A DNA stretch of 30,628 nt, taken from a virus. Location: the IMG/VR virus record IMGVR_UViG_3300032294_001141, positions 1 to 30,628 of that record; one strand, 5' to 3'. Positions 461 to 27,066 of the stretch are shown in pieces. The position numbers were made by a program, and so were the translations under genes. The notes below the pieces were generated by a model, which saw only the letters and a list, made by a program, of their open reading frames with translations, made no database searches and was not told where the DNA came from. Numbering within the stretch: the first letter of the stretch is position 1; every line of letters starts with the position of its first letter.

Positions 461-1629
461 AAATACAAGCGACAGTAGTATTCCAAAAGAACTGGGAGGC
501 TAATAAAAGAATTATAGTTAATCAGGGAAGCTCTAGAAGTTCCAAGACTTATTCTATAGCTCAGAAATATATCCTTAAACTTCTAAAAGAAAAAGGTAAG
601 ATTTTGTCTATTGTAAGAAAGACATCCCCAGCCCTAGATTTAACTGTGGCTAGAGACTTCTTTGAGATACTTATCAATTGGAACTTATATGATAGCAAGA
701 ACCATAACAAAACATTAAAGACATATAACCTCAATGGAAACTTAGTAGAGTTCCTTGGTATGGATAACCCACAAAAGAAAAGAGGAGCTAAAAGAGACTA
801 TTTGTGGCTTAATGAGGCTAATGAATTATCTGTAGAAGATTGGAGGCAGTTAGCTATGAGAACAACAGGGGAGATTACATTAGATTTCAACCCTTCAGAC
901 TCATTCCACTGGATATATGATGATGTGATGACTAGAGATGACTGTGTAGTTATAAAATCAACCTACAGGGATAACCCATTTTTACCTCAGGAGGTAATAG
1001 ACGAGATTGAAAGGTATAGGGTGTTAGATCCAAACTTTTGGAGAGTATTCGGATTAGGAGAAAGGGGAGTATCAGAAGACTTAATTTATACCCATTGGCA
1101 AAGATGTGAGATTTTACCAGAAAGCTATGATAGAAAGTATTATGGGGCTGACTGGGGGTTTAACAATCAGACTGCTATTGTAGAAGTAAGAGAAAAAGAT
1201 AATGTGCTATATGTACAAGAGTTATTATACCAATCAGGACTTAATTCAGATGAGATTATAAGAAAGCTACAAGAGTTAAACATACCCAGAGATGCAGTTA
1301 TAGTGGGAGATAGTGAAGACCCTGGCAAGATAAATGACATTTATATGGCGGGATATAACATAAAACCAGCTTATAAGAATAAAGGCTCAGTTATACGAGG
1401 TATAAATGCAGTTAAAGTTAAAGAGATACATATAACTAATACTTCAATCAATATGATTAAAGAGTTACAATTCTACAGGTGGCAAAAGAATAAAGATGGG
1501 CAGACTATGGATATGCCAATCAAAGTCAAAGACCATATTATGGATGCTATGCGGTATTGTATAGACTATATGGAACTTGAAAAGGCAACAGATGGTAAGA
1601 TATATAATAATAAACCATTTGGATTTTAA
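457..1629 (+). CDS. terL: Terminase large subunit
   Basis: A 390-residue packaging motor of the PBSX/Terminase_3 type. The N-terminal ATPase has a Walker A-like loop GSSRSSKT (residues 24-31) and a Walker B-like YLWLNE (115-120, acidic residue E120). The C-terminal RNase H-like nuclease shows acidic residues in GADWGF (D232), VGDSEDP (D285) and KDHIMDAMRY (D359/D363). It pumps DNA into the prohead through the portal and cuts the concatemer. Length is normal. It starts inside an ATGA overlap with the upstream gene and ends 3 bases before the portal gene. Its last codons contain copy 1 of the AGGCAACAGATGGTAA element at 1583-1598, encoding KATDGK here. Confidence 0.95.
   Translation: MKIQATVVFQKNWEANKRIIVNQGSSRSSKTYSIAQKYILKLLKEKGKILSIVRKTSPALDLTVARDFFEILINWNLYDSKNHNKTLKTYNLNGNLVEFLGMDNPQKKRGAKRDYLWLNEANELSVEDWRQLAMRTTGEITLDFNPSDSFHWIYDDVMTRDDCVVIKSTYRDNPFLPQEVIDEIERYRVLDPNFWRVFGLGERGVSEDLIYTHWQRCEILPESYDRKYYGADWGFNNQTAIVEVREKDNVLYVQELLYQSGLNSDEIIRKLQELNIPRDAVIVGDSEDPGKINDIYMAGYNIKPAYKNKGSVIRGINAVKVKEIHITNTSINMIKELQFYRWQKNKDGQTMDMPIKVKDHIMDAMRYCIDYMELEKATDGKIYNNKPFGF
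1583..1598 (+). repeat. Late-gene element copy 1 (before portal)
   Basis: Perfect copy of AGGCAACAGATGGTAA, lying inside the 3' end of the terminase gene. 34 bases separate it from the portal ATG at 1633. ATATAT at 1600-1605 can pair with ATATAT at 1629-1634, so the portal start codon would sit in the stem. A mini-ORF beginning at the element's own ATG reads through to a TGA that overlaps the portal ATG. Confidence 0.8.
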
Positions 1630-1632
1630 TAT

Positions 1633-3054
1633 ATGAAGCAATATCCTCCACAAAAAGACATAGACAGATTAGCCAAATATGACACCTACGAGAAGTTATT
1701 TGAAGGGAATCATAGAATAGCTTTTAGCAAAAGATTAGAGCAATATGCCAGTCAATTTGCAGGGGATATGTCTCTTGTAAGATATGTGGTACTTCCCTAT
1801 CCTAGAATTATTAGCACTATTTCAGCTGACCTTTTATTTGAGGAACAACCAAAAGTAGTGTTAGAAAATAGCACTAATCAAGACTTTGTAGACAAACTAT
1901 GGTATGAAAATAGTATGTGGACTACTTTATATGAGGAGGCTTTAGTTTCAAGCTATAAAGGTGACTCAGTACTTAGAATATTAGCTGTAGACGGACAGAT
2001 TAAGATAGATACAGTTAAACCAGATGTATATTTCCCAGTATATAATGACAATAATGTTAAAGTTCCAGTAAAAGAGCATATATTGGCATATATCCAGATG
2101 ATTGATGATAAACAATACCTTGTAGTAGAAACCTATAGAGTAGGAGAGATAGAAACTCAGGTATATGATTTTAAAGATGGTGTTATAGGAGGGGAATATA
2201 GCTCTATGGATATGCTAGGAATAGAACCTATTGTAAAGACTAACTTAGGAGATGGATTTAGTCTTATCCATCATATTAAGAACTGGGGAATGAGTGGTAA
2301 ATTCTGGGGGATTAGCGACTATGAGGACTTAATGGACTTATTCTTTGCTATCAACAACAGATTATCTAGAAATGAGCATATATTAGACAAACACGGAGAC
2401 CCAATCTTAGCAGTCCCTAAAGGTGTATTAGATAGCAATGGGAATGTATCAAGACAACAAATGGGTATGATAGAATTACCTAGTCACCCAATGACAGGTG
2501 AGGCAGATAAACCAGAATATATTGTTTGGGATAGTAAATTAGAATCATCTTTTGCTCAGATTGATGTATTATTAGAGCAGTTATGGATTAGTTCACAGAT
2601 GTCCCCTACTTTATTTGGACTTACTAAATATGGAATAGCAGAAAGTGGTAGAGCTTTGAAATATAAACTGCTTAGAACTTTATCTTTGAAACACCGCAAA
2701 CAGATGTACTGGGATAATGGAATAAAAGCACTTGTAGAGTCTGCTATTGAATTTGCAAGAAATAACCAATTGACTAGTGATGGATTACGACCAGCTGAGA
2801 CTGAAGTACCTACAATCTATTGGCAAGATGGTATTATAATGGATGAATTAGAAATCTTACAAGCTGAACAGGCTAAATTAGATTATGAATTAACTACTAA
2901 AGAAGATGCAATCTCTAATGTAGATGGTATAACTAGCAATGAGGCTCAAGATAAACTAACTAGAATACAAAAAGAATTAGATGCTAAAAATAAAGCTAAT
3001 CCATTTTCAATAATTAACAGAGGAATAAATGGCGGAGACGAAGAAGAGGATTAG
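1633..3054 (+). CDS. Portal protein (SPP1 gp6-like)
   Basis: A 473-residue protein at the position of the portal, between large terminase and minor head protein. Portals form the dodecameric ring at one capsid vertex through which DNA enters and to which the tail connector binds. The central part has the pattern of SPP1 gp6/A118-type portals: a clip and stem region around MSPTLFGLTKYGIAESG (about residues 331-347), followed by a helical segment and an acidic, Lys-rich C-terminus. Length is normal for the family. The start lacks a Shine-Dalgarno site; ATATATGAAG is the context. Its last 26 bases overlap the next gene. Confidence 0.9.
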   Translation: MKQYPPQKDIDRLAKYDTYEKLFEGNHRIAFSKRLEQYASQFAGDMSLVRYVVLPYPRIISTISADLLFEEQPKVVLENSTNQDFVDKLWYENSMWTTLYEEALVSSYKGDSVLRILAVDGQIKIDTVKPDVYFPVYNDNNVKVPVKEHILAYIQMIDDKQYLVVETYRVGEIETQVYDFKDGVIGGEYSSMDMLGIEPIVKTNLGDGFSLIHHIKNWGMSGKFWGISDYEDLMDLFFAINNRLSRNEHILDKHGDPILAVPKGVLDSNGNVSRQQMGMIELPSHPMTGEADKPEYIVWDSKLESSFAQIDVLLEQLWISSQMSPTLFGLTKYGIAESGRALKYKLLRTLSLKHRKQMYWDNGIKALVESAIEFARNNQLTSDGLRPAETEVPTIYWQDGIIMDELEILQAEQAKLDYELTTKEDAISNVDGITSNEAQDKLTRIQKELDAKNKANPFSIINRGINGGDEEED

Positions 3055-4117
3055 ACCTGAAGGGATAGTCCAATCAGATGTACAAGTTAAACTAATAGAA
3101 GCCATTGTAAAAGAAGCTTATCTTGACCTTGCCACTTATGCTGACAGATTAGACAAAGGTACATTGTCGGCTAAATCTAGAGCAATCAAGAATATTGCAG
3201 ATAAATATAATTTACAACTGGAGGCTTGGGCTAACATAACCATCCCCTCTTTATATTATGAAGGAATGACCAATGCGGTTAATGCCTCAATCAAAGGTGG
3301 GCAGGTGTATGAGTTTAGTCAATCGTTTGTAAGTCTACATCAAGAAGCTTTAGAAGCCCTTATATCCCAAACTTATACTTATACAGATAAAATAGCTCAA
3401 GGTATACAAGACACTGGAACTAGAGCTTTGACCTTTGCTGAACAGGAAAAGATAAAAGTAGAAATAGGAAAAGGATTAGTTACCGGAGCTGACCAGAATA
3501 CTATAGCTAAAGGAGTAACTAGTGTATTAAAACAGGCTGAAGCTACTGCTGTAGTATCTGTAGCAGGTAGAAGGCAGGGGCTTGACACTTATGCTTCAAC
3601 CTTAGCTAGAAGTATACTTACAGATGCCCAATGGCAGGGGACTAGCAATACTATAATTCAAGAAGGTTATGATTTAGTACAAGTGTCAGACCATTTTGGG
3701 GAATGTTCATTATGCCGACCTTATGAAAACGAAGTGTTATCCCTAACAGGTAGAACCAGAGGATATACCACACTAGCAGAGGCTACTTCTAATGGACTTA
3801 AACACCCTAACTGTAGACACTCAATCTCACCATTTACAGAGGGATTAGCTGAGGTAAGCAAGGTATGGAATACAGAAACACAACGATATGAGGACAAAGA
3901 AAATGTTAAGTCTCAAAATAAAACTACTAACAGCCCTAAATCTATTCTTAGAGCCTATGAGCAGTTTACAACTAAAATAGGAATTAAAGATTATAATATA
4001 GTCAACGAAGCTATCAAGAACAAAGATGTAAAAACTATCCAAGAAGTCAAAAAAAGGACTAAAGACGAGAGATTAAAAGAAAGCCTAGACATACTATCCG
4101 ACTATATAGAAAAATAG
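3029..4117 (+). CDS. Minor head protein (phage minor capsid protein 2 / SPP1 gp7-like)
   Basis: A 362-residue head morphogenesis protein. The diagnostic block is around residues 227-270: DHFGECSLCRPYENEVLSL followed by GLKHPNCRHSISPF, the Cys/His signature of the SPP1 gp7/Mu gpF and minor-capsid-2 families. Such proteins bind the portal and are packaged in a few copies; some accompany the DNA at ejection. The N-terminal two thirds are helical and variable. The start ATGGCGGAG overlaps the portal end. The TAG stop supplies the first bases of late-gene element copy 2. Confidence 0.88.
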   Translation: MAETKKRIRPEGIVQSDVQVKLIEAIVKEAYLDLATYADRLDKGTLSAKSRAIKNIADKYNLQLEAWANITIPSLYYEGMTNAVNASIKGGQVYEFSQSFVSLHQEALEALISQTYTYTDKIAQGIQDTGTRALTFAEQEKIKVEIGKGLVTGADQNTIAKGVTSVLKQAEATAVVSVAGRRQGLDTYASTLARSILTDAQWQGTSNTIIQEGYDLVQVSDHFGECSLCRPYENEVLSLTGRTRGYTTLAEATSNGLKHPNCRHSISPFTEGLAEVSKVWNTETQRYEDKENVKSQNKTTNSPKSILRAYEQFTTKIGIKDYNIVNEAIKNKDVKTIQEVKKRTKDERLKESLDILSDYIEK

Positions 4118-4131
4118 GCAACAGATGGTAA
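4116..4131 (+). repeat. Late-gene element copy 2 (before scaffold)
   Basis: Perfect AGGCAACAGATGGTAA; its first AG belongs to the TAG stop of the minor head gene. The distance to the next ATG (56 bases) is the longest of the six copies. The spacer holds a short GC-containing hairpin, CATCC-ACGATAC-GGATG, unlike the A/T-only hairpins of other copies. A mini-ORF MVI-stop starts at the element's ATG. Confidence 0.8.
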
Positions 4132-4187
4132 TATAAGCCTAACGGGTCATCCACGATACGGATGTTATCAACATAATTTGCATAAAT

Positions 4188-4781
4188 ATGGCAGAGGATA
4201 CAACCCCGCTGGAGAGCGAAATTACTCAAGATACAACTACTGACACACCAGTAGAAGAGACAAAACAAGAAATCCAAATTCCAAAATCAAGGTTTGACCA
4301 GGTTAATAAAGAAAGAAACGAATATAAAGCTAAATTAGCAGAATTCGAAACCAAAATCGCCGAGGAACAAGGTAACTGGAAACAACTTGCAGAAACCCGA
4401 GAACAGGAGCTTAAAGATATACAAAATAGATATAGACAAAGCAATCTTGAAAAATCTCTAATACAGGAAGCAGTAAAGTATAATCCTCACGACTTAAAAG
4501 CAGTTATGAAGTTTATAGAAACTGATAATGTTACTGATGAGACAGGTGAGGTTAACATCACAGGGCTTACATCAGAACTAACTCGTATCAAGACCGAAAT
4601 GCCCTATCTTTTCAAAGCTGATACAACTAGCAACGCTGGAAACGCTAACGGGGGAAACTCTTCAAGCTCAACTGGTGTTATATTTAAAGAATCACAATTG
4701 GCAGACTCTGACTTTGTGGCTAAAAATATAAAAGCTATTGCTGAGGCTAAGAAAGAAGGACGAATATTAATAGGACAATAA
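4188..4781 (+). CDS. Capsid scaffolding protein (GP20-like)
   Basis: A 197-residue protein directly before the capsid gene. The N-terminus is acidic and Thr/Glu-rich. Residues about 35-95 form a charged coiled coil (starting near FDQVNKERNEYKAKLAEFE), followed by a short helix region, an Asn/Gly/Ser-rich linker (about 148-160) and a basic C-terminal helix ending KKEGRILIGQ. This layout matches GP20-type scaffolds of Gram-positive siphophages, which template prohead assembly and are then expelled; the basic tail usually contacts the coat protein. No protease is seen nearby, so the scaffold may leave intact or be cleaved by something outside the window. Confidence 0.8.
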   Translation: MAEDTTPLESEITQDTTTDTPVEETKQEIQIPKSRFDQVNKERNEYKAKLAEFETKIAEEQGNWKQLAETREQELKDIQNRYRQSNLEKSLIQEAVKYNPHDLKAVMKFIETDNVTDETGEVNITGLTSELTRIKTEMPYLFKADTTSNAGNANGGNSSSSTGVIFKESQLADSDFVAKNIKAIAEAKKEGRILIGQ

Positions 4782-4795
4782 ATTAAATTACCAAT

Positions 4796-5704
4796 ATGGC
4801 AGGAGAAATAACAAAGTCATTACTTGACTCATTCATCCCTACTGTAGCCGCTGCTACAGCTATGGAGACCTTAAAAGACAGAAGAGGAATTTCCCGATTT
4901 GTAAATACTGACTTTTCAAATGATGTAAGACAATTTGGAGAAGCTGTAAAAGTTGGATTCTTAGGAGACTTAGGAGTTGCTGATACTAAAGTAGCTGGAT
5001 CTGAATATGCAAATACAGGGCCTGCTGACAGTGATGTAACAATTACTCTTAACCAACACAGACACAAGACTGTTTTGATTGAAGATGTTGGACGAGCACA
5101 ATCACGACCAGATGTACTACAAGGATATATCAACGAAGCTATTGAATCAGTATTGAGAGCTGTTGATGTTTCTGTTGCTACCCTTGGATTATCTTTCACA
5201 AATACTTTTGCTGAAACTGCTAATGCTTATCAGGATATAGTAGCTCTTAGAAGAACTTTAGTTGCTAACAAAGCTCCAGTTGAAGGGCCTTTCATCTTAG
5301 CTGTAAGCCCTACTAAATATGCTGATTTGTTAATTGACACAAATATTAGCAAGGCTTTAGAGTATGGAACTCCAGTAGCTGTACAAAATGCTCAAATTCC
5401 TGCAGTAGCTGGAATGGGATTATTTGAAACCCAATTGATCCAATCAGGAGGAAGCCCAGTTAGAATTAACAATATGGCTTTCCACAGAGATGCTATGGCT
5501 ATCGCTGTTCGTCCACTTCCAGTTGATGGAAATGGTCTAGGTGTAAAACAAGGTGTTTACAATGATCCAGTAACAGGTCTATCTCTTAGATTAACTATGG
5601 GATATGATGCTAAAATTGGAGGAATGTTTGCAAGAGCTGAAATCCTTTATGGTGTTGCTATCATGAGACAAGGATTAGCAGTAGCTTATAGAGAAAATCT
5701 ATAA
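4796..5704 (+). CDS. Major capsid protein (HK97 fold, P22 gp5-like family)
   Basis: A 302-residue protein following the scaffold, the usual place of the coat protein. It starts MAGEITKSLLDSFIPTVAA. The central pattern DSDVTITLNQHRHKTVLIED is typical of the P22 coat-like branch, where this strand and loop precede the spine helix, here QGYINEAIESVLRAVDVSV. It has no N-terminal delta domain, consistent with a separate scaffold. Codon use is more uniform and less AT-rich than in neighbours, as expected for the most expressed gene. The start context ACCAATATGGCAGG has no Shine-Dalgarno. A terminator follows directly. Confidence 0.85.
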   Translation: MAGEITKSLLDSFIPTVAAATAMETLKDRRGISRFVNTDFSNDVRQFGEAVKVGFLGDLGVADTKVAGSEYANTGPADSDVTITLNQHRHKTVLIEDVGRAQSRPDVLQGYINEAIESVLRAVDVSVATLGLSFTNTFAETANAYQDIVALRRTLVANKAPVEGPFILAVSPTKYADLLIDTNISKALEYGTPVAVQNAQIPAVAGMGLFETQLIQSGGSPVRINNMAFHRDAMAIAVRPLPVDGNGLGVKQGVYNDPVTGLSLRLTMGYDAKIGGMFARAEILYGVAIMRQGLAVAYRENL

Positions 5705-5722
5705 CCCTACTCACTTACTATT

Positions 5723-5747
5723 AAGAGCTTGAAATATAGCTCTTTTT
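5723..5747 (+). terminator. Rho-independent terminator after capsid gene
   Basis: Stem AAGAGCT (5723-5729) pairs with AGCTCTT (5738-5744) around an 8-base loop, followed by a T run. It should end or reduce transcription coming from the head genes. Its loop also carries the -35 box of the promoter listed next. Confidence 0.75.
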
Positions 5748-5757
5748 AGTTTATAAT
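5729..5757 (+). promoter_or_regulatory. Sigma70-type promoter overlapping the capsid terminator
   Basis: TTGAAA at 5729-5734, a 17-base spacer and TATAAT at 5752-5757. The -35 box is the terminator loop and the spacer includes its 3' arm. It would drive the 53-residue gene and the glycosyltransferase independently of the late operon. Confidence 0.6.
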
Positions 5758-5785
5758 TAAAATGTAATAAATAATCATATTAAGT

Positions 5786-5947
5786 ATGAAAATCACTAGA
5801 CAAGTAGATAGTGTATATAGCAAAATAAAGCTACATAATCAAGAAATATACAATCAAATTAAAGATATTGAGTTAAAATTATCTAAAATTAAATTGGCAA
5901 AAGATAAATATGGACTGTTAATGCACAAACATTTTTTAACAGGATAA
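5786..5947 (+). CDS. Small coiled-coil protein, 53 residues
   Basis: A short gene starting MKITRQVDSVYSKIKLHNQE and ending HKHFLTG. The middle has heptad-like Ile/Leu spacing (EIYNQIKDIELKLSKIK) and is highly charged, so a small helical or coiled-coil protein is likely. Start context is TTAAGTATGAA, the AAGTATG form shared by several accessory genes in this window. It sits 17 bases before the glycosyltransferase and behind the promoter at 5729-5757, so the two probably form one moron. Function is unknown; a helper of the glycosyltransferase or a head-decorating peptide are possibilities. Confidence 0.6.
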   Translation: MKITRQVDSVYSKIKLHNQEIYNQIKDIELKLSKIKLAKDKYGLLMHKHFLTG

Positions 5948-5963
5948 TTTAGATATAAATAAT

Positions 5964-6944
5964 ATGAAATCAATATACTATGCTACCCCACCGCTTAAGA
6001 CTAAAATAGGCGGTTTTGGCAATGTAGCCAACACTTGGTATAGAATTAACCAAGAAGATAAAAAAATAGCCTTAGAACTAGAAAATAAAGGGCAGGATGT
6101 AGGTTTTCTATATTATCAACCACCCCAAGTGCCAATGTTAGATGGATGTAAGAAGAAAATAGGTTATTTTATGTTTGAGTCTACTAAATGCCCACCTGAT
6201 TGGGAGCCTTATATAAAGCAATTAGATTTACTTATAACACCTAGCAAATTTGCAAGAGATATATTTTATAATCAGTTTGGAATAGACAGTCTAGTTATCC
6301 CCCACGGAATAGATACAGATTTATATACCTATAAACCGCGACCAGAAAATAGAGTGTTTAAGTTTTTACATTACAATGCTTTTGACTTTAGAAAGGGTTT
6401 TGATGTAGTGGTAGAAGCTTTTACACAAGAGTTTGCCCAAGAGGAATGGGTAACATTGACTGTAAAAGGAACTGGAGGCAATAATTATCCGTATATGAAT
6501 TATTCTATAGATACAATTATAGAAGATTACACCCCAGAACAGTTAGTAGATTTATTAGCTAGTCACGATTGTTTTGTATTCCCGTCCAGAGGTGAAGGGT
6601 TTGGAATGACACCGCTTGAAGCTATGAATGTAGGAATGCCAGTAATTATCCCCAATGCTCACGGAATAGCTGAATATTTTGATAATAGATATTGCTATGA
6701 AATAGAATGTGCTATGAGTAAAGCTGTATATTATAGAGAGGACTATGATAAAAACGATTTAGGGTTATGGTATGAGCCTAAAATAGAGTCGGTTAGAAAA
6801 CAAATGAGGCAGGCTTTTAATGATTGGAAAGCAGGAAAAGGACAATATGCAAAAGGCTTAGATAAAGAGCGGTCAGAATATGCCAGTCAATTTAGTTTAA
6901 GAAAATCATATAATGAGATAAGGCAACAGATGGTAAACTTATAG
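5964..6944 (+). CDS. GT4-type glycosyltransferase in the head gene cluster
   Basis: A 326-residue GT-B fold glycosyltransferase. Visible signatures: N-terminal GGFGNVANTW (Gly-rich, acceptor side), VIPHGID (111-117), a basic pair in FDFRKGFD (R143, K144), and the nucleotide-sugar motif GEGFGMTPLE with the E-x7-E pair E211/E219. GT4 enzymes are retaining transferases using activated sugars. There is no membrane segment or signal peptide, so it acts in the cytoplasm. Placement between capsid and connector genes suggests that it sugars a virion protein or modifies the host surface or DNA; the target is unknown. Its final codons contain late-gene element copy 3 (RQQMVNL). Confidence 0.88.
   Translation: MKSIYYATPPLKTKIGGFGNVANTWYRINQEDKKIALELENKGQDVGFLYYQPPQVPMLDGCKKKIGYFMFESTKCPPDWEPYIKQLDLLITPSKFARDIFYNQFGIDSLVIPHGIDTDLYTYKPRPENRVFKFLHYNAFDFRKGFDVVVEAFTQEFAQEEWVTLTVKGTGGNNYPYMNYSIDTIIEDYTPEQLVDLLASHDCFVFPSRGEGFGMTPLEAMNVGMPVIIPNAHGIAEYFDNRYCYEIECAMSKAVYYREDYDKNDLGLWYEPKIESVRKQMRQAFNDWKAGKGQYAKGLDKERSEYASQFSLRKSYNEIRQQMVNL
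6921..6936 (+). repeat. Late-gene element copy 3 (before connector gene)
   Basis: Perfect AGGCAACAGATGGTAA inside the 3' end of the glycosyltransferase gene, read in a different codon frame from copy 1. It is followed by a perfect 7-bp hairpin, CTTATAG (6938-6944) with CTATAAG (6953-6959), ending 3 bases before the ATG at 6963. Confidence 0.85.
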
Positions 6945-6962
6945 TAATAAACCTATAAGATT

Positions 6963-7691
6963 ATGGCATTAAATACAATATTATCTCATCCAGATCAAGA
7001 CTCTTATGTAACCATTGCTGAAGCTAATAATTATTTGGCTATTAAACAGAATTATTCACATTGGGCTGGATTATCTACCATACAAAAGGAAGGTTTCTTA
7101 AAACAAGCCGCTTTGCAAATGGATCAATTAAGGTATAAAGGATATAAAGTATATTATACAGATAAAGACTACCGTAGAGAGCAGAATTTAGCCTTCCCGC
7201 GAGAGGGAATAGAAAAACTACATCACGGTAATATAAGCAGTGCAACTAGCACCACGGTGTCAGTTTTACAGTTAGGAGGACAGCAATATTTAGCTGATGA
7301 TGTTTTGAACGGTGGGGCGGTTGTAGTTAGAGAAGGTACAGGTAGAGGGCAGGTTAGAGCTATTACAGATTGGGTAAGCTCAACAGGTACAGCAACCGTG
7401 TCAGGGTGGGATATACAACCAGATACAACTAGCCAAGTGTTATTTATATCTCCAATAGATAAAAAAATAAAGAATGCTCAAATTGAACAGGCATATTTCT
7501 TGAGTAGATATAAAGATGAGGATATATTAAATATAATCTCAGGAGTTAATTCATACAAAATAGGAGATTTATCTGAGACTTATGGTACAGATAGTGTAAG
7601 GTTTGCTCTAGTTGGAGGAATGCCATTCTCCCCTCTTGCTAATCAGTTATTACAAGGCTTGATTGATACAACAGGCTATATGCACTACTAA
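6963..7691 (+). CDS. Head-tail connector/adaptor (DnaT-like fold) with inserted domain
   Basis: A 242-residue protein at the place of the gp15-like adaptor that sits on the portal. The N-terminal 80 residues show the DnaT-like connector pattern: YVTIAEANNYLAIK, SHWAGL, LKQAALQMDQLRYKGYK and LAFPREG. The matching C-terminal helix is IEQAYFLSRY (about 176-185). Between them, residues about 85-170 form a beta-rich insert with GGAVVVREGTGRGQVRAIT, a pattern seen in modular tail and surface domains. Ordinary adaptors are about 100-150 residues, so this insert is an enlargement that may protrude from the neck. Confidence 0.7.
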   Translation: MALNTILSHPDQDSYVTIAEANNYLAIKQNYSHWAGLSTIQKEGFLKQAALQMDQLRYKGYKVYYTDKDYRREQNLAFPREGIEKLHHGNISSATSTTVSVLQLGGQQYLADDVLNGGAVVVREGTGRGQVRAITDWVSSTGTATVSGWDIQPDTTSQVLFISPIDKKIKNAQIEQAYFLSRYKDEDILNIISGVNSYKIGDLSETYGTDSVRFALVGGMPFSPLANQLLQGLIDTTGYMHY

Positions 7692-7692
7692 T

Positions 7693-8010
7693 ATGATTGA
7701 TTTATCTAGATACTTAAATCAAGATATAGAACTAAACACTAGAACTGGCTATGATAAATATGGTAAACCAGAAACTTTAACTTGCTATATTAAAGCTAGG
7801 CTAGTGTATGCTAATAGACAGGATAGAGGATTACAAGCAAAACCTTTAGACTATGATGTAGAGGTTTGGGTATATCCACAGACTACAGTCGCAGTAGATG
7901 ATACAATCACAGCTGATAATATTGAGTTTAGAGTGATAGAAGTCCAGATATTAAGAGACAGGCTAGGGAATATACACCATAAAAAACTATTATGTCAAAA
8001 GTATGTCTAG
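7693..8010 (+). CDS. Head-closure (stopper) protein
   Basis: A 105-residue protein starting MIDLSRYLNQDIELNTRTG. The ATG one base after the previous stop is preferred to an in-frame ATG 30 bases upstream inside the previous gene. Size, beta-rich character (YDVEVWVYPQTTVAVDDTI, NIEFRVIEVQ) and the position right after the adaptor fit SPP1 gp16-like stoppers, which close the neck after packaging. It overlaps the next gene by 8 bases. Confidence 0.65.
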   Translation: MIDLSRYLNQDIELNTRTGYDKYGKPETLTCYIKARLVYANRQDRGLQAKPLDYDVEVWVYPQTTVAVDDTITADNIEFRVIEVQILRDRLGNIHHKKLLCQKYV

Positions 8011-8410
8011 TATTAAAATTAAAAGAAATACATTAACTCCAAACTTAAAAAAACTTCAGACTATAAATCCTATGGATGAATGGGGAAGAATATGTGCTGG
8101 AGAATTACTTAGATTATCTAGGCAAATTGTGCCATTTGGAATTAGAAGAGGTAAAAAAAGATACAGCCCTGGTAGATTGTCTCAATCAGGATTTTTTAAA
8201 AGAGAAGGGCAGTATTGGATCACAGGCTATGATACAAAGTATGCAATGTATCAGCACGAAGGTATGAGAAGAGATGGAAGCCGAGTGGTTAGGAATTGGA
8301 GCAACGGTAGGAAAAGCAAATACTTAGAAAATCCATTAAAAGAAAACATTAGCACTTGGAACAAAGTAGCAAAAGAAGTATTAGCAAGTGAATTAAAGAA
8401 AAAACTATGA
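8003..8410 (+). CDS. Tail-completion / minor capsid protein (HK97 gp10-like)
   Basis: A 135-residue protein with the usual pattern of gp10-like neck proteins: an N-terminal helix pair, then VPFGIRRGKK...GRLSQSGFF (the VPFxTGxLxxS region), a strand and YAMYQHEGM (about 81-89), and a C-terminal helix ending in KELKKKL-like basic residues. These proteins join the tail end to the head stopper. The start context CAAAAGTATGTC is the AAGTATG form, and the stop overlaps the next start (ATGA). Confidence 0.7.
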   Translation: MSSIKIKRNTLTPNLKKLQTINPMDEWGRICAGELLRLSRQIVPFGIRRGKKRYSPGRLSQSGFFKREGQYWITGYDTKYAMYQHEGMRRDGSRVVRNWSNGRKSKYLENPLKENISTWNKVAKEVLASELKKKL

Positions 8411-8784
8411 CACTACTTACAGATATAACTACATATATAGATAGCAATACAAGTTTAACAGCTGGGACTAATTTATTTATAGGGACTTTACCTGCCAATG
8501 TAGATAATTGTGTTGGTATATTTCAATCAGGAGGTGTAGAGCCTACTACATACCTAGATATTATAAAACCTACAATACAAGTTATAGTTAGGAATACTAA
8601 TTATGAGACTGCTCAGCAGTTATCTTATGAGATATATGATAGTCTACATCAATTGTATGCTCAAACTATGGGAGGAACTGAAATATACACTGTATTTGCC
8701 TTGCAAGAGCCTACAGATATAGGGGAAGATGAAACAGGTAGAGCAGTGTTTACAGGTAATTATGTACTTGAGATAAAAAATTAG
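8407..8784 (+). CDS. Tail terminator protein (Minor_capsid_3-like)
   Basis: A 125-residue protein. MTLLTDITTYIDSNTSLTAG begins the N-terminal helix; LFIGTLPANVDNCVGIFQSGG and the helix ETAQQLSYEIYDSLHQLY follow the layout of tail-terminator proteins, which cap the growing tail tube and join it to the head. Place and size agree. It overlaps the previous gene by 4 bases. Its TAG stop is shared with late-gene element copy 4. Confidence 0.65.
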   Translation: MTLLTDITTYIDSNTSLTAGTNLFIGTLPANVDNCVGIFQSGGVEPTTYLDIIKPTIQVIVRNTNYETAQQLSYEIYDSLHQLYAQTMGGTEIYTVFALQEPTDIGEDETGRAVFTGNYVLEIKN

Positions 8785-8798
8785 GCAACAGATGGTAA
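8783..8798 (+). repeat. Late-gene element copy 4 (before tail tube gene)
   Basis: Perfect AGGCAACAGATGGTAA beginning in the TAG stop of the tail-terminator gene, 28 bases before the tail tube ATG. A 5-bp A/T hairpin, TATAA (8807-8811) with TTATA (8817-8821), follows. The mini-ORF at its ATG is MVR-stop. Confidence 0.8.
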
Positions 8799-8826
8799 GA
8801 TAAGAATATAATTAATTTATACGAAT

Positions 8827-9324
8827 ATGGCATTACAAGACATCAATGTTGGATACGCTACAGTCAGTTGGAAAGGAACTTCTTTAGGTGAAACTGAAGG
8901 AGAAGTAAGGTTTGAGGTTATAACTCAAAGAGTTATGCAATCATCAGATACTTATGGAGTAGAAACTCCATTTGATATGATTGAGGTAGGACGACAATTA
9001 AAAGTTACAGTTCCTTTATCTGAATACGCAATTCAAACATTACAAACAATTATTCCTACTGCTACTTTATCAGGAGGAAGATTAAGAATTGGTGGTACAA
9101 CTGGAACATCTACCAGAGCTACAGCTGGAAGATTGATTATCCATCCTGTAATTAGAGGGTCAAATACTGGACACGATGTAGTAATTCATCAGGCAGTTAT
9201 TAGTTCTGAAACAATTGAGGTAGCATTTTCAAATGACAGAAGTCAAATAGAAATAGAGTTTATGGCTCTTCTTGACCCAACAAATGTAAATGGAGCATTA
9301 GGATATATCGGAACACCTGCTTAA
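8827..9324 (+). CDS. Major tail tube protein
   Basis: A 165-residue, Thr/Gly-rich beta protein (MALQDINVGYATVSWKGTSL at the start) placed between tail terminator and assembly chaperones, where the tube subunit is found. Alternating strands such as EVRFEVITQRVMQSSDTYG and IEVAFSNDRSQIEIEFMALL fit the tube fold that stacks in hexameric rings around the tape measure. The sequence does not identify a particular subfamily. The start lies in ACGAATATGGCA with no Shine-Dalgarno, and the gene follows element copy 4. Confidence 0.75.
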   Translation: MALQDINVGYATVSWKGTSLGETEGEVRFEVITQRVMQSSDTYGVETPFDMIEVGRQLKVTVPLSEYAIQTLQTIIPTATLSGGRLRIGGTTGTSTRATAGRLIIHPVIRGSNTGHDVVIHQAVISSETIEVAFSNDRSQIEIEFMALLDPTNVNGALGYIGTPA

Positions 9325-9325
9325 T

Positions 9326-9640
9326 ATGAATATACAAGCATTAACAATATCACAAGTATTAGAATTAACTCAGGAATTACAACCAATTCTTGAGTTATCT
9401 TCACAAATAGATCCAGAGAATGTAGCACAGTCAACTATGACTACAATTCTAGGTAATCTTGAGAAAGCCATCCCAGTATTAGTTATCTTAAGTGGAAAAA
9501 CTTATACAGAAGAGCAAATCAAAGAGATGAACCTTGTAGAATTGACTAAATTAGTAGATGACATCTTAGAAGCTAACGGGGTGCAAGAACTATTGGGTTT
9601 ATTTACCAAAATCAGCCAAAAGTTCCAGAGCCAGAAATAG
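9326..9640 (+). CDS. Tail assembly chaperone, short frame (G-like)
   Basis: A 104-residue, mostly helical acidic protein between tail tube and tape measure, the place of lambda G-type chaperones. Such proteins bind the tape measure and recruit tube subunits and are absent from the virion. Codons 90-92 contain the slippery heptamer GGGTTTA in the correct phase, so a fraction of ribosomes probably shifts by -1 into the next frame and makes a G-T fusion. It begins one base after the previous stop. Confidence 0.75.
   Translation: MNIQALTISQVLELTQELQPILELSSQIDPENVAQSTMTTILGNLEKAIPVLVILSGKTYTEEQIKEMNLVELTKLVDDILEANGVQELLGLFTKISQKFQSQK
9595..9601 (+). promoter_or_regulatory. -1 ribosomal frameshift site GGGTTTA
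   Basis: The heptamer lies in phase as G GGT TTA, the X-XXY-YYZ form. Slipping back one base gives GGG TTT ATT TAC and continues open into the frame that contains the next ORF. A GAGGA/TCCTC hairpin lies at 9640-9652, further downstream than usual for a stimulator. Confidence 0.7.
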
Positions 9641-9657
9641 AGGAATATCCTCCTAGC

Positions 9658-9975
9658 TTGATGACTTTTACCTATGAGTTTATGGCTCATAACTATTCGT
9701 ATTCAAAACAAGAAACAATGCAACTGACTATCCCAGAGGCATTGTTTTTTTATAAACAAACTCAGAAAAGACAAAAGATTAAAGCAGTAGATGAAATCTC
9801 TAAGTATGAAATATTATTAGCTATTGTAACTAACCCACATGTAAAGGCAACTGAGGCTAGAAAGCTACCTAATGAGTTTAAAAGGATAAAGATGAGGCTA
9901 GAGAATAGACAAGCTAAACCGGAAGATATAGAGAAGAATTTAGATAGATTAAAAGGGTTGTTAGGAGGCGGATAG
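9658..9975 (+). CDS. Tail assembly chaperone, T-like extension frame
   Basis: Read from its own ATG this ORF gives 105 residues (starting MMTFTYEFMAHNYSYSKQ); it is more likely made as the C-terminal part of a fusion. The frame is -1 relative to the upstream chaperone and is open from about 9577, so frameshifting at 9595-9601 would give a protein of about 216 residues ending at 9975. Between the frames the fusion reads FIYQNQPKVPEPEIEEYPPS, a plausible flexible linker. No ribosome site precedes the ATG at 9658. The TAG stop forms the start of element copy 5. Confidence 0.7.
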   Translation: MMTFTYEFMAHNYSYSKQETMQLTIPEALFFYKQTQKRQKIKAVDEISKYEILLAIVTNPHVKATEARKLPNEFKRIKMRLENRQAKPEDIEKNLDRLKGLLGGG

Positions 9976-9989
9976 GCAACAGATGGTAA
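9974..9989 (+). repeat. Late-gene element copy 5 (before tape measure)
   Basis: Perfect AGGCAACAGATGGTAA starting in the TAG stop of the chaperone frame, 26 bases before the tape-measure ATG. TATATA at 9990-9995 can pair with TATATA at 10011-10016, next to the start codon. The mini-ORF is MVIYN-stop. Confidence 0.8.
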
Positions 9990-10015
9990 TATATAACTAA
10001 TAAAGTAACATATAT

Positions 10016-11815
10016 ATGGCATTATCAGCAGGAGCAGTAGTAGCACAATTTGATGGAGACTTCTCAGGTCTTAATAAAGGTTTGCAACAGGCACAATCTA
10101 AAGTAGATGGATTTGTTAATAAAATAGGTGGGGTCGGACAAACAATTGGAGGGGCTTTTCTTACAATAAGTAAATATGCTGGAATAGCAGGAGCTGCAAT
10201 AAAAGGTACAGCTCTTGTAATGGGAAATAAAGCAGCTAATGCTGCAAGTGATTTAGCCGAAGCTCAGAATGCTGTTAATGTTGTATTTGGAGATTCTGCT
10301 AATATATTATTAGATTTTGCTAAAACAGCAGATAAAACAACTGGATTATCTCAAAAAGCATTTTTAGGTGCTGCAACTCCTATTGGAGCCGCACTCCAAA
10401 ATGTCGGGCTTAATTCAAAACAAGCTGCAAATGAAGCTGTTAATTTAACCAAAAGAGCTGCCGATTTAGCTTCTATATTTAACACAGATTTAGATAGTGC
10501 TTTGACTGCTATACAAGCAGGATTAAGAGGAGAAGCTGATCCATTAGAAAGGTTTGGAGTAGGATTAAGTGATGCCAATATAAAAGCTTATGCTTTAAAA
10601 AAAGGGATAGCTTTAGCTGGAAAAGAAATGACAGACCAGCAAAAAGTAACTGCTAGGTTAGGATTGTTTTTTGAACAAACTAATAAAATACAAGGGGATT
10701 TTGCTAACACTTCAGACCAATTAGCTAATAAACAAAGAATAAATGCTGCAAGATTTGAAAATCTACAAGCTACTATTGGAGAAAAATTATTGCCGACTAA
10801 ATTAAAATTAGCCGATGCTTTAGGAAAAGTTTTAGATTGGATGGATCAAAATTCAGAAGGAATTAGTAATTTATTAAACAATTTTATAATAGGAGGAGCT
10901 GGGATTGCTAAAGCAATTATAACAGGACTTGTAGAAGCCCCTAAAAGAGCTGCTGAAGCTTTTCAATCATTCTTAAAATTTATAGAACCAATAATGCCAT
11001 TTTTAACCGTATTAGGAGGATATTTAGTGTTTATGGCTACTCAAATATTATCTGCTTTTAAATACGCTTGGGAACAATTAAAACCTCCTATAATAGAATT
11101 ATGGAATACTATTAAAGATTTTTGGAATGCAATTTTACCTATATTAATATTATTAGGGACGGTGTTATTGTTTGTAGTATGGCCAATGATACAAATAGCT
11201 ATAGCTAGTATAATACAAGTATTTAAAGGATTATTGACTGGAGTTAGTGGAATTATAAATGTTATATCTGGCATACTTAATGCTTTTATAGGAGTAGTAT
11301 ATGGAATATTTACTGGAGATTTTTCAAGAGCTGCAGAAGGATTTAAGCAAATATTTAGAGGATTAGGACAATGGATACAAGGTGCTTTTCAAATTATATT
11401 AGCTCCATTTAGAGGAATTATAGATGGAATTACAAACTATATAAAAGGAATAAACTTCTTTCAGATAGCTGTTAATTGGATGCAAGAGTTAATCCGGGGG
11501 ATACAAAGCAAAGCTGGTGGAATTGGAGGAGCTGTTAAAAGTGCTATTGGAGGTATGTTACCTGAAGGGGTTAGAAAACTTATCCCAGGATTTGCCGATG
11601 GTGTTAGAAACTTTTCAGGAGGTCTTGCAGTTGTAGGAGAAAGAGGTCCTGAGCTTGTTAACCTACCAAAAGGAGCTGATGTGTTTACTAATGAAGAGAG
11701 CAGAAAGATGACAGCTGGAGGTGGAGGTATCACCATTGAGACTATGAATATTAAGAGTGGTGTAGATTGGGAATTAGGGGCTTCTTATATGGCACAAAAA
11801 TTAAGATTATCATAA
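10016..11815 (+). CDS. Tail tape measure protein
   Basis: A 599-residue protein of the expected type: N-terminal Gly/Ala-rich helical region (QFDGDFSGLNKGLQQAQSKV), helical conserved domain around residues 70-270, then several hydrophobic segments (about 285-480, e.g. ILPILILLGTVLLFVVWPMI), and a Gly-rich C-terminus with FADGVRNFSGGLAVVGERG, the motif common at tape-measure ends. It fixes tail length and travels with DNA at ejection. At about 0.15 nm per residue the tail would be near 90 nm. No lytic domain is visible. Confidence 0.92.
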   Translation: MALSAGAVVAQFDGDFSGLNKGLQQAQSKVDGFVNKIGGVGQTIGGAFLTISKYAGIAGAAIKGTALVMGNKAANAASDLAEAQNAVNVVFGDSANILLDFAKTADKTTGLSQKAFLGAATPIGAALQNVGLNSKQAANEAVNLTKRAADLASIFNTDLDSALTAIQAGLRGEADPLERFGVGLSDANIKAYALKKGIALAGKEMTDQQKVTARLGLFFEQTNKIQGDFANTSDQLANKQRINAARFENLQATIGEKLLPTKLKLADALGKVLDWMDQNSEGISNLLNNFIIGGAGIAKAIITGLVEAPKRAAEAFQSFLKFIEPIMPFLTVLGGYLVFMATQILSAFKYAWEQLKPPIIELWNTIKDFWNAILPILILLGTVLLFVVWPMIQIAIASIIQVFKGLLTGVSGIINVISGILNAFIGVVYGIFTGDFSRAAEGFKQIFRGLGQWIQGAFQIILAPFRGIIDGITNYIKGINFFQIAVNWMQELIRGIQSKAGGIGGAVKSAIGGMLPEGVRKLIPGFADGVRNFSGGLAVVGERGPELVNLPKGADVFTNEESRKMTAGGGGITIETMNIKSGVDWELGASYMAQKLRLS

Positions 11816-11816
11816 T

Positions 11817-12650
11817 ATGGAAACTTTAGCATTTAATGAAATTACAGCTACAATAGGAGGTCAATATCATTTAGCTAATATAGAAGGACTACTAATTAGT
11901 GGGCTTGAATTTGCCTCATATAATATACCTCAAAGCAATAAGGCAGGGTTTGTATCCAATTACACTCATAGTAAGGTGATAAGCATAGATATAGCGGTCA
12001 GAGGTACAGATATAAATGACTTCTATGATAAAAGACAGGCTTTATTGAAAGCTATATATCCAAACACTAATCAATCGGTTGTATTTACTTATACCACTGA
12101 AGATAGTCAAGTTTATACTTTTGAGGGATATCTTAGAACTGGAGTCAATGAAGGTGAAAGGACTGGAGCATATCAGACTATAGGTTTCTCAATATATGTG
12201 CCGTCTGGGACGATTACCAATGGGAACTTAAACTCTATTACCCTTGACCAAGCAGGAGTGCCGACAGGGGCAGTTTTGCCTTGGACTTTGCCAGTATTGC
12301 TAGGAACTGTATCAGGGTCGGGAACTTTAGCCAATGCAGGGAATGGATATGCTACGGTAGATATACAATTTATAGGCCCTGGTGAAGGGTTTACTATTCT
12401 TAATCAGACCACTGGGGATAGTTTCAAAGTAGATGGATTAACTTTGACCGCTGGGCAGATTATAGAAGTGTTTGGATCTACACAAACTGTCACTCAGCAA
12501 GGTGTATCTATTTATCAATATGTAACATCAGACTCTAACTTTATCACTTTAGCTCCTGGAAATAATAATCTTGCATTATATGTAGACAGTGGAGCTACTT
12601 CAGACACTAAGGCAATAATAACTTGGTATAACACTTATGTCGGAATATAA
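11817..12650 (+). CDS. Distal tail protein (Dit-like)
   Basis: A 277-residue protein directly behind the tape measure. The N-terminal domain carries the siphovirus tail component pattern, including VISIDIAVRGTDINDFYDKR and LLKAIYPN, followed by FEGYLRTGVNEGERTGAYQT. A second, Gly/Thr-rich galectin-like domain fills residues about 150-277. Dit forms the hexameric hub that joins the tail tube to the baseplate. The 3' end overlaps the next gene by 14 bases. Confidence 0.8.
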   Translation: METLAFNEITATIGGQYHLANIEGLLISGLEFASYNIPQSNKAGFVSNYTHSKVISIDIAVRGTDINDFYDKRQALLKAIYPNTNQSVVFTYTTEDSQVYTFEGYLRTGVNEGERTGAYQTIGFSIYVPSGTITNGNLNSITLDQAGVPTGAVLPWTLPVLLGTVSGSGTLANAGNGYATVDIQFIGPGEGFTILNQTTGDSFKVDGLTLTAGQIIEVFGSTQTVTQQGVSIYQYVTSDSNFITLAPGNNNLALYVDSGATSDTKAIITWYNTYVGI

Positions 12651-13677
12651 ATATATTTTATGGGATTATAGAACTGGGCAGAAAGAAATCTTCCCAGAGG
12701 TTTTAAATAGACAATATTCTTATCAGCTTAACCGAGCAGGTAAAGCTAGTTTTACTTTACCTATTACAGTTGAAAGGCTACAACGATTTGATATATACCT
12801 TGGGGTGACAAGACTGCTTATATACAGAGAAAATACTCTTATATGGGCAGGTGTAGTCTGGGAAATACAGGAAGGTGCTAGTGATGACGGGGATGTAACT
12901 ATACAATGCACAGAGATATTCCATATATTGAGTGAAAAACGGTATACTTCTAATACTTATACCGTTACAGATGCAGGGCAGATAGCTTGGGGCTTGATAA
13001 ATACTACACAAGGGCTTACAGGTGGCAATTTAGGGATTACACAGGGTACAATAGAAACTACTCAGAATAGAGATAGACAATATTTTGATGAGAGTATAGG
13101 TGAAAAGATTATCCAATTAACAGAGGTTATAAATGGCTTTGATTTTGTTATAACACCTAGCATAAAAATAAATACTTTAGGTGTATTTAATGTATATGCT
13201 AAGAGAGGGTCTACAATTACAGATTTTAAATTAGAATATGGTGAGGGGTTAAAGAATAATATACAATCTTGGAGCCGAAAAAGGACTGTATCAGATATGT
13301 TTAATAGCATAGTGGTAGAAGGTGAAGGATATGGAGATATTGCACTTAAAGCGACAACTACAGATAGTAGTTTAATTAATGCGGTTGGATTATTAGAAGG
13401 CCGAAAGCAGGAAAAATCTATAAATCAGCAAACTACACTTAATCAGAAAGCGGATGAATATATTAGGGTTCACAAGACAGAACAGCCAATTTATGATATA
13501 ACTCTTAATAATGCCTATAATGATTTTGGTAAATATGATGTGGGAGATATAGTGCCAATTAGAATAAAATATGGTTATGTAGATATAAATACCACTATGA
13601 GAATATATGGCATAGATGTAAGAGTTTCAAATGCAGGAGAGGAAAGCATAAAGTTAACAATATCACCTATAATATAA
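12637..13677 (+). CDS. Tail-associated baseplate hub protein (gp37-like)
   Basis: A 346-residue protein that follows Dit and fits the ReqiPepy6 gp37-like family of tail hub proteins. Its N-terminus YKYILWDYRTGQKEIFPEV, then QYSYQLNRAGKASFTLP, then LIYRENTLIWAGVVWEIQEG, is characteristic, as is the C-terminal YDVGDIVPIRIKYGYVDI. Such proteins close the tail tip and open on receptor binding. No peptidase extension is present, so wall digestion at entry must come from another protein. Confidence 0.75.
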   Translation: MSEYKYILWDYRTGQKEIFPEVLNRQYSYQLNRAGKASFTLPITVERLQRFDIYLGVTRLLIYRENTLIWAGVVWEIQEGASDDGDVTIQCTEIFHILSEKRYTSNTYTVTDAGQIAWGLINTTQGLTGGNLGITQGTIETTQNRDRQYFDESIGEKIIQLTEVINGFDFVITPSIKINTLGVFNVYAKRGSTITDFKLEYGEGLKNNIQSWSRKRTVSDMFNSIVVEGEGYGDIALKATTTDSSLINAVGLLEGRKQEKSINQQTTLNQKADEYIRVHKTEQPIYDITLNNAYNDFGKYDVGDIVPIRIKYGYVDINTTMRIYGIDVRVSNAGEESIKLTISPII

Positions 13678-13682
13678 AATAT

Positions 13683-13892
13683 ATGAGTACAAGTATACAA
13701 GAGCAGGATTTAATTCAAAAAATAAAAGACTTACAGCAAAGAGTAAACGATTTAGAAAGGCAACAGCGAACTATTGGGGGTTGGACAATTACACCTACAA
13801 CCTTAGCAAGTGGAAACTTAGAAATTAATTCTACTATACCTAGAATACTTATGAAGAAAAGTGGGCAGAATAAATTAGTAATTGAAGGATAA
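13683..13892 (+). CDS. Small tail/baseplate protein with coiled coil
   Basis: A 69-residue protein. Residues 1-28 form a coiled coil (QEQDLIQKIKDLQQRVNDLE); the rest, with GGWTITPTTLASGNLEI, resembles the beta-repeat that follows coiled coils in phage fibre proteins. It may be a short linker subunit or a remnant of a larger fibre. The last base of its TAA stop is the first base of the next ATG. Confidence 0.55.
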   Translation: MSTSIQEQDLIQKIKDLQQRVNDLERQQRTIGGWTITPTTLASGNLEINSTIPRILMKKSGQNKLVIEG

Positions 13893-14293
13893 TGGCTGGA
13901 TTATTTGAAATAGCAAAAGATGGATTTGATGTACTTACCACTGCGGATAAGAATAAAATTTATAGTTCAAAATATCAGACATTTAAGGCAGAAATAGAAG
14001 TAACTGTTGATGATACTATAACTGCTGGGGATACTGAAGAAGTTTTAACGGTTACTCACAATCTTGGATATTATCCTGTTGTGTATGCTTGGATAACTCA
14101 TGCTGGTCAAACTCACGAAATATGTGGATTTAGAGCTATAGATTTCCCTAGTGGAGGTGAAATACAAGCTACTTGGTTGCACATAAACACTAATCAAATA
14201 GAATTTTACATATTTCCACCTGGGGCATCTCCAACTATGCCAAGTACCAAAACTTATACCTGGACATATAAAATTATGAAAGATGAGTTCTAG
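13892..14293 (+). CDS. Tail module protein A (one repeat unit)
   Basis: A 133-residue protein beginning MAGLFEIAKDGFDVLTTADK. It has one copy of a module found twice in the next gene: an IAKDGFDVLT-type lead, a short helix, a strand and a VTHNLGYYP motif (about residues 52-60), then a beta-rich half. This is likely a trimeric baseplate or decoration protein. It is coupled to both neighbours: 1-base overlap upstream and 11 bases downstream. Exact role is unknown. Confidence 0.6.
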   Translation: MAGLFEIAKDGFDVLTTADKNKIYSSKYQTFKAEIEVTVDDTITAGDTEEVLTVTHNLGYYPVVYAWITHAGQTHEICGFRAIDFPSGGEIQATWLHINTNQIEFYIFPPGASPTMPSTKTYTWTYKIMKDEF

Positions 14294-15062
14294 ATTAGCA
14301 ATAGCAAGAGACGGTCAAAATGTACTCACTGAAAGTGATAAAGATTTATTATTTTCAACTGGTTTTAATAATCTTAAAATTTGGAAAGCTAAAAAAGTAA
14401 CTATAACTGTACCTAATGGAGGTTTTGGAGTTGGTTCGGTAACTCAATCATATAGTCACGGTTTATCTTATGCTCCTACATTTTCAGTATATTATAAAAT
14501 ATTATCTGGTGCTAATGCTGGTAAAATAATACCTTTTATGACACAAGGTCCTAATGATTTTAGCACCGCCTATACTACAAGCTCTAATATTGTGTTTAAT
14601 TTAGTAGATTTTGAAGCTGGTAATCAAGAATTTTATTATCTTATAAATGTTGACCCTGTTTCTACTGGAACTTTATCTGGAGCTTTAAACTCTCAATTTA
14701 GAATAGCAAAAGATGGGTTTAATTGTTTAACAGAAGACAATGAAGTTAATTATGAATTTTTATCTGCTAGACCTGTGTATAATATTTATCAAAAATCTAC
14801 AGCTACTATAACTTTATCCGCTAGTAATTTAGAAGAAACTGTAACTATTGCTCATAATTTAGGTTATATACCACTTGCTATTGTGCAAGAAATAAACGAA
14901 GGTCCTAGATTACCTTATTTTCAAGGAAACCTTGCTTTAGATTATTTTCTTGATTCTACAAACATATACATAAGAGCTATACAGGCTTTTACAACTTTTA
15001 CAATACCACTTTCTTTTAAGATACAAATATTTACTAATGAATATGGAGAAGATATCAATTAA
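14283..15062 (+). CDS. Tail module protein B (two repeat units)
   Basis: A 259-residue protein with two tandem copies of the module of its upstream neighbour. Copy one starts LAIARDGQNVLTESDKDLLF and has YSHGLSYAP; copy two starts at about residue 139 with FRIAKDGFNCLTEDNE and has IAHNLGYIP. Together with the upstream gene this gives three related modules in a row, pointing to local duplication. Probable surface-exposed baseplate protein; a receptor-binding role is inferred only from place. Confidence 0.6.
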   Translation: MSSRLAIARDGQNVLTESDKDLLFSTGFNNLKIWKAKKVTITVPNGGFGVGSVTQSYSHGLSYAPTFSVYYKILSGANAGKIIPFMTQGPNDFSTAYTTSSNIVFNLVDFEAGNQEFYYLINVDPVSTGTLSGALNSQFRIAKDGFNCLTEDNEVNYEFLSARPVYNIYQKSTATITLSASNLEETVTIAHNLGYIPLAIVQEINEGPRLPYFQGNLALDYFLDSTNIYIRAIQAFTTFTIPLSFKIQIFTNEYGEDIN

Positions 15063-15071
15063 AAGCTACAT

Positions 15072-15087
15072 AGGCAACAGATGGTAA
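15072..15087 (+). repeat. Late-gene element copy 6 (before baseplate protein)
   Basis: Perfect AGGCAACAGATGGTAA, 30 bases before the ATG at 15118. An 8-bp hairpin, ATATCTAT (15091-15098) with ATAGATAT (15110-15117), follows and touches the start codon. The mini-ORF is MVNYIY-stop. Confidence 0.85.
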
Positions 15088-15117
15088 ACTATATCTATTA
15101 AGTAATAATATAGATAT

Positions 15118-26520: not shown

Positions 26521-26706
26521 TTATTTTTTATACCTGTTAATAATGTTGTAAATCCTTGCTCGAGATATTCCTAGGTCTTTGGCTAATATAGTAACGGAAG
26601 CTCCGCTACTATATGCCTTTAAGATTATACTGTCTCTTTTATTAGGTTTTTTTGTGTTCCACTGTATATCTCTCTTGATCATCCCGTATTTCATTTTCTT
26701 ATTCAT
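26521..26706 (-). CDS. Small helix-turn-helix protein
   Basis: A 61-residue basic protein whose C-terminal half is a resolvase-type helix-turn-helix: DSIILKAYSSGASVTILAKD followed by LGISRARIYNIINRYKK. The N-terminus is Lys-rich. It could be a repressor of the repeated early promoters or a nucleoid-like protein. It overlaps the upstream gene by 8 bases and ends 2 bases before the next start. Confidence 0.65.
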   Translation of the reverse strand: MNKKMKYGMIKRDIQWNTKKPNKRDSIILKAYSSGASVTILAKDLGISRARIYNIINRYKK

Positions 26707-26992: not shown

Positions 26993-27016
26993 ATAAGTGT
27001 TTTTAATTATTAACCC

Positions 27017-27030
27017 GATAATCTCTTATC
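27017..27030 (-). promoter_or_regulatory. Leader hairpin with GNRA tetraloop (copy 1)
   Basis: On the minus strand GATAA-GAGA-TTATC, within CAGATAAGAGATTATCGGG, just after the promoter. The loop is GAGA. The copy at 30260-30273 has loop GAAA on the same stem, so the only difference keeps the GNRA form. Confidence 0.55.
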
Positions 27031-27037
27031 TGTATAT

Positions 27038-27066
27038 ATAATATCATAATATTGACACTTTGTCAA
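27038..27066 (-). promoter_or_regulatory. Sigma70-type early promoter with operator-like palindrome
   Basis: On the minus strand TTGACA (27066-27061), 17-base spacer and TATTAT (27043-27038). The -35 box is one arm of the perfect inverted repeat TTGACA-AAG-TGTCAA (27052-27066), a likely repressor site. Confidence 0.75.

Follow-up and report, generated by a model that had tools for sequence, protein, structure and literature searches.

The locus analysed here raises the question of what a 16-base element, AGGCAACAGATGGTAA, does ahead of the virion genes of a phage. Six exact copies are found, all on the plus strand (Table 1), in the whole stretch of 30,628 bases that was analysed (the window), and no further copies exist there at up to three mismatches. 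For shuffled sequence 0.36 is expected, and six was reached in 0 of 100 shuffles, which bears out the number, positions and strand given in the preliminary description. The distances from the end of the 16-mer to the ATG of the next gene are 34, 56, 26, 28, 26 and 30 nt for sites 1 to 6, again as first described (26–34 nt at five copies, 56 nt at the other), and the earlier observation that copies 1 and 3 are coding in two different frames also holds: copy 1 (codon position 2) lies in the 3' end of terL and copy 3 (codon position 1) in the 3' end of a glycosyltransferase gene. The first bases of copies 2, 4 and 5 form part of the TAG stop codon of the preceding gene.

Each copy stands before a short series of virion genes, whose leading members encode the portal, the scaffold, a head-tail adaptor, a probable tail tube, the tape measure and a virion structural protein. 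Matches to PHROGs in the window include terminase, portal, minor head, scaffold, major capsid, glycosyltransferase, connector proteins, tape measure, Dit and tail proteins, and support the presence of a tailed-phage late region. The genes originally proposed to be served by the element stand for portal, scaffold, connector (head-tail adaptor Ad1) and tape measure. A tail tube is plausible for the gene at 8827, where the PHROGs match is "Ig domain protein", and the proposed baseplate gene at 15118 instead matches "head protein / virion structural / minor tail". Further downstream, 27-base tandem repeats (17392-17546, plus strand) give a tail-region protein an N-terminal series of I-D-N-x-x-I repeats.

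On sequence grounds, the six 16-mers are most likely promoters of the phage virion genes. The explanation that we favour, and hold with good confidence, is that they are late promoters for a host sigma70-type RNA polymerase acting together with a box-binding factor, itself most likely phage-encoded.

Table 1. Predicted late promoters, leader hairpin and candidate regulators in the window.
Feature	Coordinates	Strand	Details
Late promoter 1, portal gene at 1633	1583..1608	+	16-mer 1583-1598; predicted start ~1608-1609; hexamer TAAGAT
Late promoter 2, scaffold gene at 4188, then major capsid	4116..4141	+	16-mer 4116-4131; predicted +1 4141; TAATAT
Late promoter 3, head-tail adaptor Ad1 at 6963	6921..6946	+	16-mer 6921-6936; predicted +1 6946; TAAACT
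Late promoter 4, probable tail tube at 8827	8783..8808	+	16-mer 8783-8798; predicted +1 8808; TAAGAT
Late promoter 5, tape measure at 10016	9974..9999	+	16-mer 9974-9989; predicted +1 9999; TAATAT
Late promoter 6, virion structural/fibre-like gene at 15118	15072..15097	+	16-mer 15072-15087; predicted +1 15097; TAAACT
RNA hairpin, leader of predicted scaffold-gene transcript	4148..4164	+	Stem CATCC/GGATG, loop ACGATAC
61-aa helix-turn-helix (HTH) protein	26521..26706	-	Weak match to "late transcriptional activator" PHROGs, E 0.003-0.02; candidate factor
124-aa HTH protein, conserved hydrophobic C-terminal helix	24721..25095	-	Candidate regulator

Clade-specific versions of the element

An exact-pattern scan of IMG/VR retrieved 52 stretches containing the 16-mer, among them several relatives with two to five copies per stretch, the others being unrelated, single chance matches. 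More distant relatives were added through capsid, portal and pattern scans, and the full contigs fall into clade A (G001 and G002), clade B (G003 and G004) and clade C (G013 to G015, with a portal ~69% identical). This search of related phages, proposed in the preliminary description, showed that the same six genes are headed by the element throughout clades A, B and C, and that its sequence is uniform within a clade and differs between clades. Its core reads GGCAACA-GA in clade A, to which the window belongs, GGCAACA-AR in clade B, GGCAACA-TA in clade D (two short contigs) and AGTCTCA-TA or AGTCTCA-TT in clade C. Clade B has AGGCAACAARTGNTAA at the six gene starts and clade D has GGCAACATATGNTA at four sites in all. 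Within clade C, G013 carries AGTCTCATATGNTA at five of the six sites and AGTCTCATTTGNTA at one; G014 and G015, the latter a fragment with five sites visible, carry AGTCTCATTTGNTA, with one TG-less variant at site 2.

Most of the contigs are fragments, and no end repeats were detected in the 30,628-base window record. Contig G013 has an exact terminal overlap of 123 bp and is therefore probably complete, and it contains exactly six sites of the late type. Contig G004 (IMGVR_UViG_3300015375_000129) has C-type terL and portal genes at one end and B-type genes with a second, B-type terL at the other; because two terL/portal sets of different clades lie at its ends it probably arose as a chimera during assembly, and the mixed sites seen there were left out as evidence of real mixing. 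The predicted regulon is a complete, position-resolved set of late promoters in an uncultured phage group.

The C-terminal peptide of TerL follows the element, reading KATDGK in clade A, KATSAK in clade B and KVSYAR or KVSFAR in clade C between conserved flanks, so that a DNA element lying inside terL dictates the C-terminal residues of that protein.

Position-by-position conservation

Upstream regions were aligned on the element to give 27 site-by-clade representatives, numbered from the predicted start. The core that runs from the box to TA served as the anchor, and the unanchored evidence consists of -7T, the predicted start and the positions that vary. The 27 representatives are not independent, because clade sequences at one site share descent, and the weight of the argument lies on the six sites per genome agreeing among themselves, in each clade. 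Positions -12T, -11A and -7T are invariant in 27 of 27 representatives, and -15T and -14G are also fixed, the G at -14 being lost only in one C2 variant (TTTAG), which lacks the TG and has a perfect TATAAT hexamer. Positions -13, -10 to -8 and -6 to -2 vary. What is fixed is the pattern TGnTAnnnT, followed by a pyrimidine-A start at five of the six sites: +1 is a constant A within each of these five, with T or C at -1, and a purine start ~7 nt past the -10 element fits there (Y-1/A+1), as judged from the sequence pattern alone. At site 1, which lies inside the 3' end of terL and is constrained by its reading frame, the predicted start is displaced by one base. Besides this -10/start pattern, the only conserved part is a box of 7 bp, specific to the clade, that spans -24 to -18 (GGCAACA in the window). 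In both box types -23G, -19C and -18A are invariant, and -24, -22, -21 and -20 occur in two states only, G/CAA or A/TCT, with 0 mixed sites. No conserved -35 region was found at the late sites in this alignment.

The extended -10 and start signature within each clade, its recurrence at the same six positions and the concerted change of the box strongly support the late promoter that had been one of the first suggestions for the repeat. From these patterns we infer that the sites act as promoters, that a factor exists and comes from the phage, and how it works, as follows. Each 16-mer would make up the upstream portion of a late promoter. Its last six bases and the three that follow would form an extended -10 element (TG-n-TAAnnT) for host RNA polymerase of the sigma70 type, and transcription would start ~10 nt past the 16-mer, so that leaders would measure 17-47 nt. 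The -24 to -18 box would be read in trans by a factor, most likely encoded by the phage, that recruits or activates polymerase at all six promoters. In another lineage the specificity of the factor would have changed, and all six boxes with it, to AGTCTCA; that all six elements changed together in relatives suggests that the reader is a phage protein that evolved with them. Such a history would make these phages a natural case of a promoter class changing specificity at all six of its sites. Against this explanation counts the placement of the box, which directly adjoins the extended -10 and is an unusual position for an activator.

Other promoter assignments were considered on the same alignment. 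An alternative register with a -10 of TAATAA, 16 bp after the box, was rejected: its sixth T is missing at most sites, and TGnTAnnnT is invariant. A sigma54 promoter (GG at -24, GC at -12) was likewise rejected, there being no GC at the required distance and no GG in clade C. A phage-specified or alternative sigma factor might read the whole -24 to -7 element as its own promoter, which would account for the box and the -10 being one contiguous conserved unit and for the three bases shared by both box types; however, no sigma-like ORF was recognised among the early ORFs scanned, a part of the total, and the late -10 part matches the extended -10 of early promoters that carry a normal -35 (see below). 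We regard this reading as unlikely.

The preliminary description also offered two functions at the RNA level, a processing site and a translation element replacing Shine-Dalgarno (SD). An element of either kind, acting as a processing site or translation enhancer in read-through mRNA, would be expected to have one orientation and to lie always ahead of a start codon, as the copies do. The conserved bases, however, fit DNA promoter positions and lie upstream of the predicted RNA start, and the distance to the start codon varies from 26 to 56 nt. Nearly all of the 41 window genes, and not the six alone, lack even a partial SD match (AGGA, AAGG or GAGG) in the 20 nt before the start codon, where the sequence is AT-rich. 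Both functions are disfavoured by these observations. Taken together, an RNA-level element is highly improbable.

The least probable of the readings weighed here is a recombination or homing target through which cassettes would spread among gene modules. It is suggested by relative L012, in which an extra gene cassette (L012:2968-4293) lies between sites 2 and 3, enclosed by two copies of the 16-mer. The cassette has its own exact 16-mer with the same spacing and TA at -1/+1, which favours the promoter reading. Against a recombination target, placement relative to the -10 pattern is kept at every site, and concerted sequence change is not needed for a passive recombination site.

The hairpin in the leader of the predicted scaffold-gene transcript (Table 1) is present at the same place in G1-G4, G13-G15 and L059, with an invariant ACGATA loop and stems that differ by clade (CATCC/GGATG, GTCC/GGAC and GCTC/GAGC). 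The stems covary: 36 of 36 cells pair, three of the four pairs counted change on both sides, and slid controls reach at most 53% paired. The folding energy of the hairpin alone was not unusual. It is possibly a site of translational or mRNA-stability control.

Probable early promoters, host and candidate readers

The probable early promoters of clades A, B and C share TTGACA-N17-(TG)nTAnnAT, with examples at 27066 (-) and 30309 (-) in the window, 8118 (-) in G001, 2920 (-) in G003 and 7889 (-) in G013, in contigs as oriented in the analysis. The pattern TTGAC-N17/18-TA..[AT]T is enriched in some genomes, with 13 occurrences in G013 against ~3 in mononucleotide shuffles of the window. The extended -10 is therefore common to both promoter classes; only the late class has the box, which is the part that differs from clade to clade. 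In the window, TTGACA-N17-TGnTATTAT is found at 27066 (-), 30309 (-) and near 29080 (-); at 27066 the -35 lies within a palindrome, TTGACA-AAG-TGTCAA, that is probably an operator. The early transcript leaders at 27000-27060 and 30243-30300 (-) share ACAGATAAGARATTATCGGGT, a conserved element of these leaders, and the other clades have GATTGAGACGCCGAG in a similar place.

TerL matched proteins from Hymenobacter and a Chitinophagaceae MAG (~45%), which points to Bacteroidota; a scan of genome contigs for the host with the major capsid protein found nothing. The primary sigma factor of Bacteroidota uses TAnnTTTG, and genes of this phylum lack SD sequences (PMC6847099). The phage genes resemble Bacteroidota genes in their missing SD. 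A Bacteroidota -7 element (TAHHTTTG) was rejected for the late sites, which read TAnnnT without TTTG, and in the window TAHHTTTG showed no enrichment (25 occurrences, compared with 30 in mononucleotide shuffles). The Bacteroidota signal of TerL conflicts with the promoter type, and this too counts against the favoured explanation.

Two HTH proteins, encoded in every relative with an early region, were considered as the reader of the box (Table 1). The recognition helix of the 61-aa protein is nearly alike in a clade A phage (LTRQRIYQII) and the clade C phage (LSRQRIYQII), whose boxes differ, and varies within clade A, where the box is identical; that of the 124-aa protein groups by clade, yet differs among clade B phages, which share one box. 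Both were set aside as the factor, their recognition helices not tracking the box types cleanly. PDB profile and fold searches with the two returned only weak, generic HTH matches (best E 0.067), and both structures were predicted from single sequences, the 124-aa model being unreliable (pLDDT 59). With its N-terminal HTH and hydrophobic helix, the 124-aa protein is possibly a membrane-anchored regulator. The reader of the box may also be a host factor that differs between hosts.

It is conceivable, though we advance it tentatively and think it somewhat less probable than not, that the system represents a novel class of phage late activator, which would bind a 7-bp spacer box just upstream of an extended -10, with a specificity naturally switched between close relatives, such that promoters and reader form matched, mutually incompatible sets. 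The reader protein could be found by pairing boxes with candidate genes, and such sets might be used as orthogonal promoters.

Comparison with known systems

The promoters of T7, T3 and SP6 are present in many copies per genome and diverge in concert with the protein that recognises them, a single-subunit phage RNA polymerase. The elements described here are like these families in having multiple copies that change together between related phages. A phage polymerase had been among the first proposals for the reader; it is not supported by the terminally redundant G013, in which no ORF exceeds 568 aa, so that, judged by ORF size, no single-subunit RNA polymerase was found there.

Lambdoid Q-dependent phages have a single late promoter. 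They too have a phage-specific element, the Q binding element (QBE), in the -35/-10 spacer of late promoters; that of 21Q has functional bases at -21 and -13 and overlaps the -24 to -18 box, -21 being within both (PMC6606751). The box could accordingly be where a Q-like antitermination factor loads: at each promoter host polymerase would start unaided and pause, and the factor would bind between -35 and -10 and ride through terminators. The initial transcribed region is AT-rich at most late sites and -10-like at several, as a pause element would be, but such a sequence is not conserved and is absent at site 2, which reads TAACGG. The QBE of 21 has direct-repeat subsites and requires a sigma-dependent pause, whereas here there are six promoters and no repeat in the element; with six promoters close together in ~13.5 kb a long-range antiterminator is also less needed, and no Q-like protein was found among the proteins scanned. 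Antitermination is decidedly unlikely on this evidence.

The start-associated sequences of cluster K mycobacteriophages are short, repeated, asymmetric and cluster-specific, and lie in the same orientation ahead of many start codons, typically 3-7 bp away; they contain an SD and serve non-structural genes (PMC3203893). The late element is similarly short, repeated, asymmetric, clade-specific and placed in one orientation before starts. Its identification as a start-associated sequence was rejected: it lies 26-56 nt from the start, has no SD and heads virion genes.

As to class, we place the predicted element among the extended -10 promoters, with a box in the spacer that is specific to the lineage, and assign it no activator family. 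In T4 middle promoters, present in many copies per genome, the MotA box takes the place of the -35 and is paired with a host -10 that often carries TGn; this box spans about -35 to -26 and is separated from the -10 by 12+/-1 bp (PMC2988021). The late box does not share the MotA spacing, ending 5 bp before the -10 hexamer and hence 7 bp closer than the MotA box, and MotA promoters serve middle genes whereas the elements here serve late genes. Compared by promoter layout, the late elements would nevertheless work most like T4 middle promoters, with a phage box in place of the -35 and a host -10.
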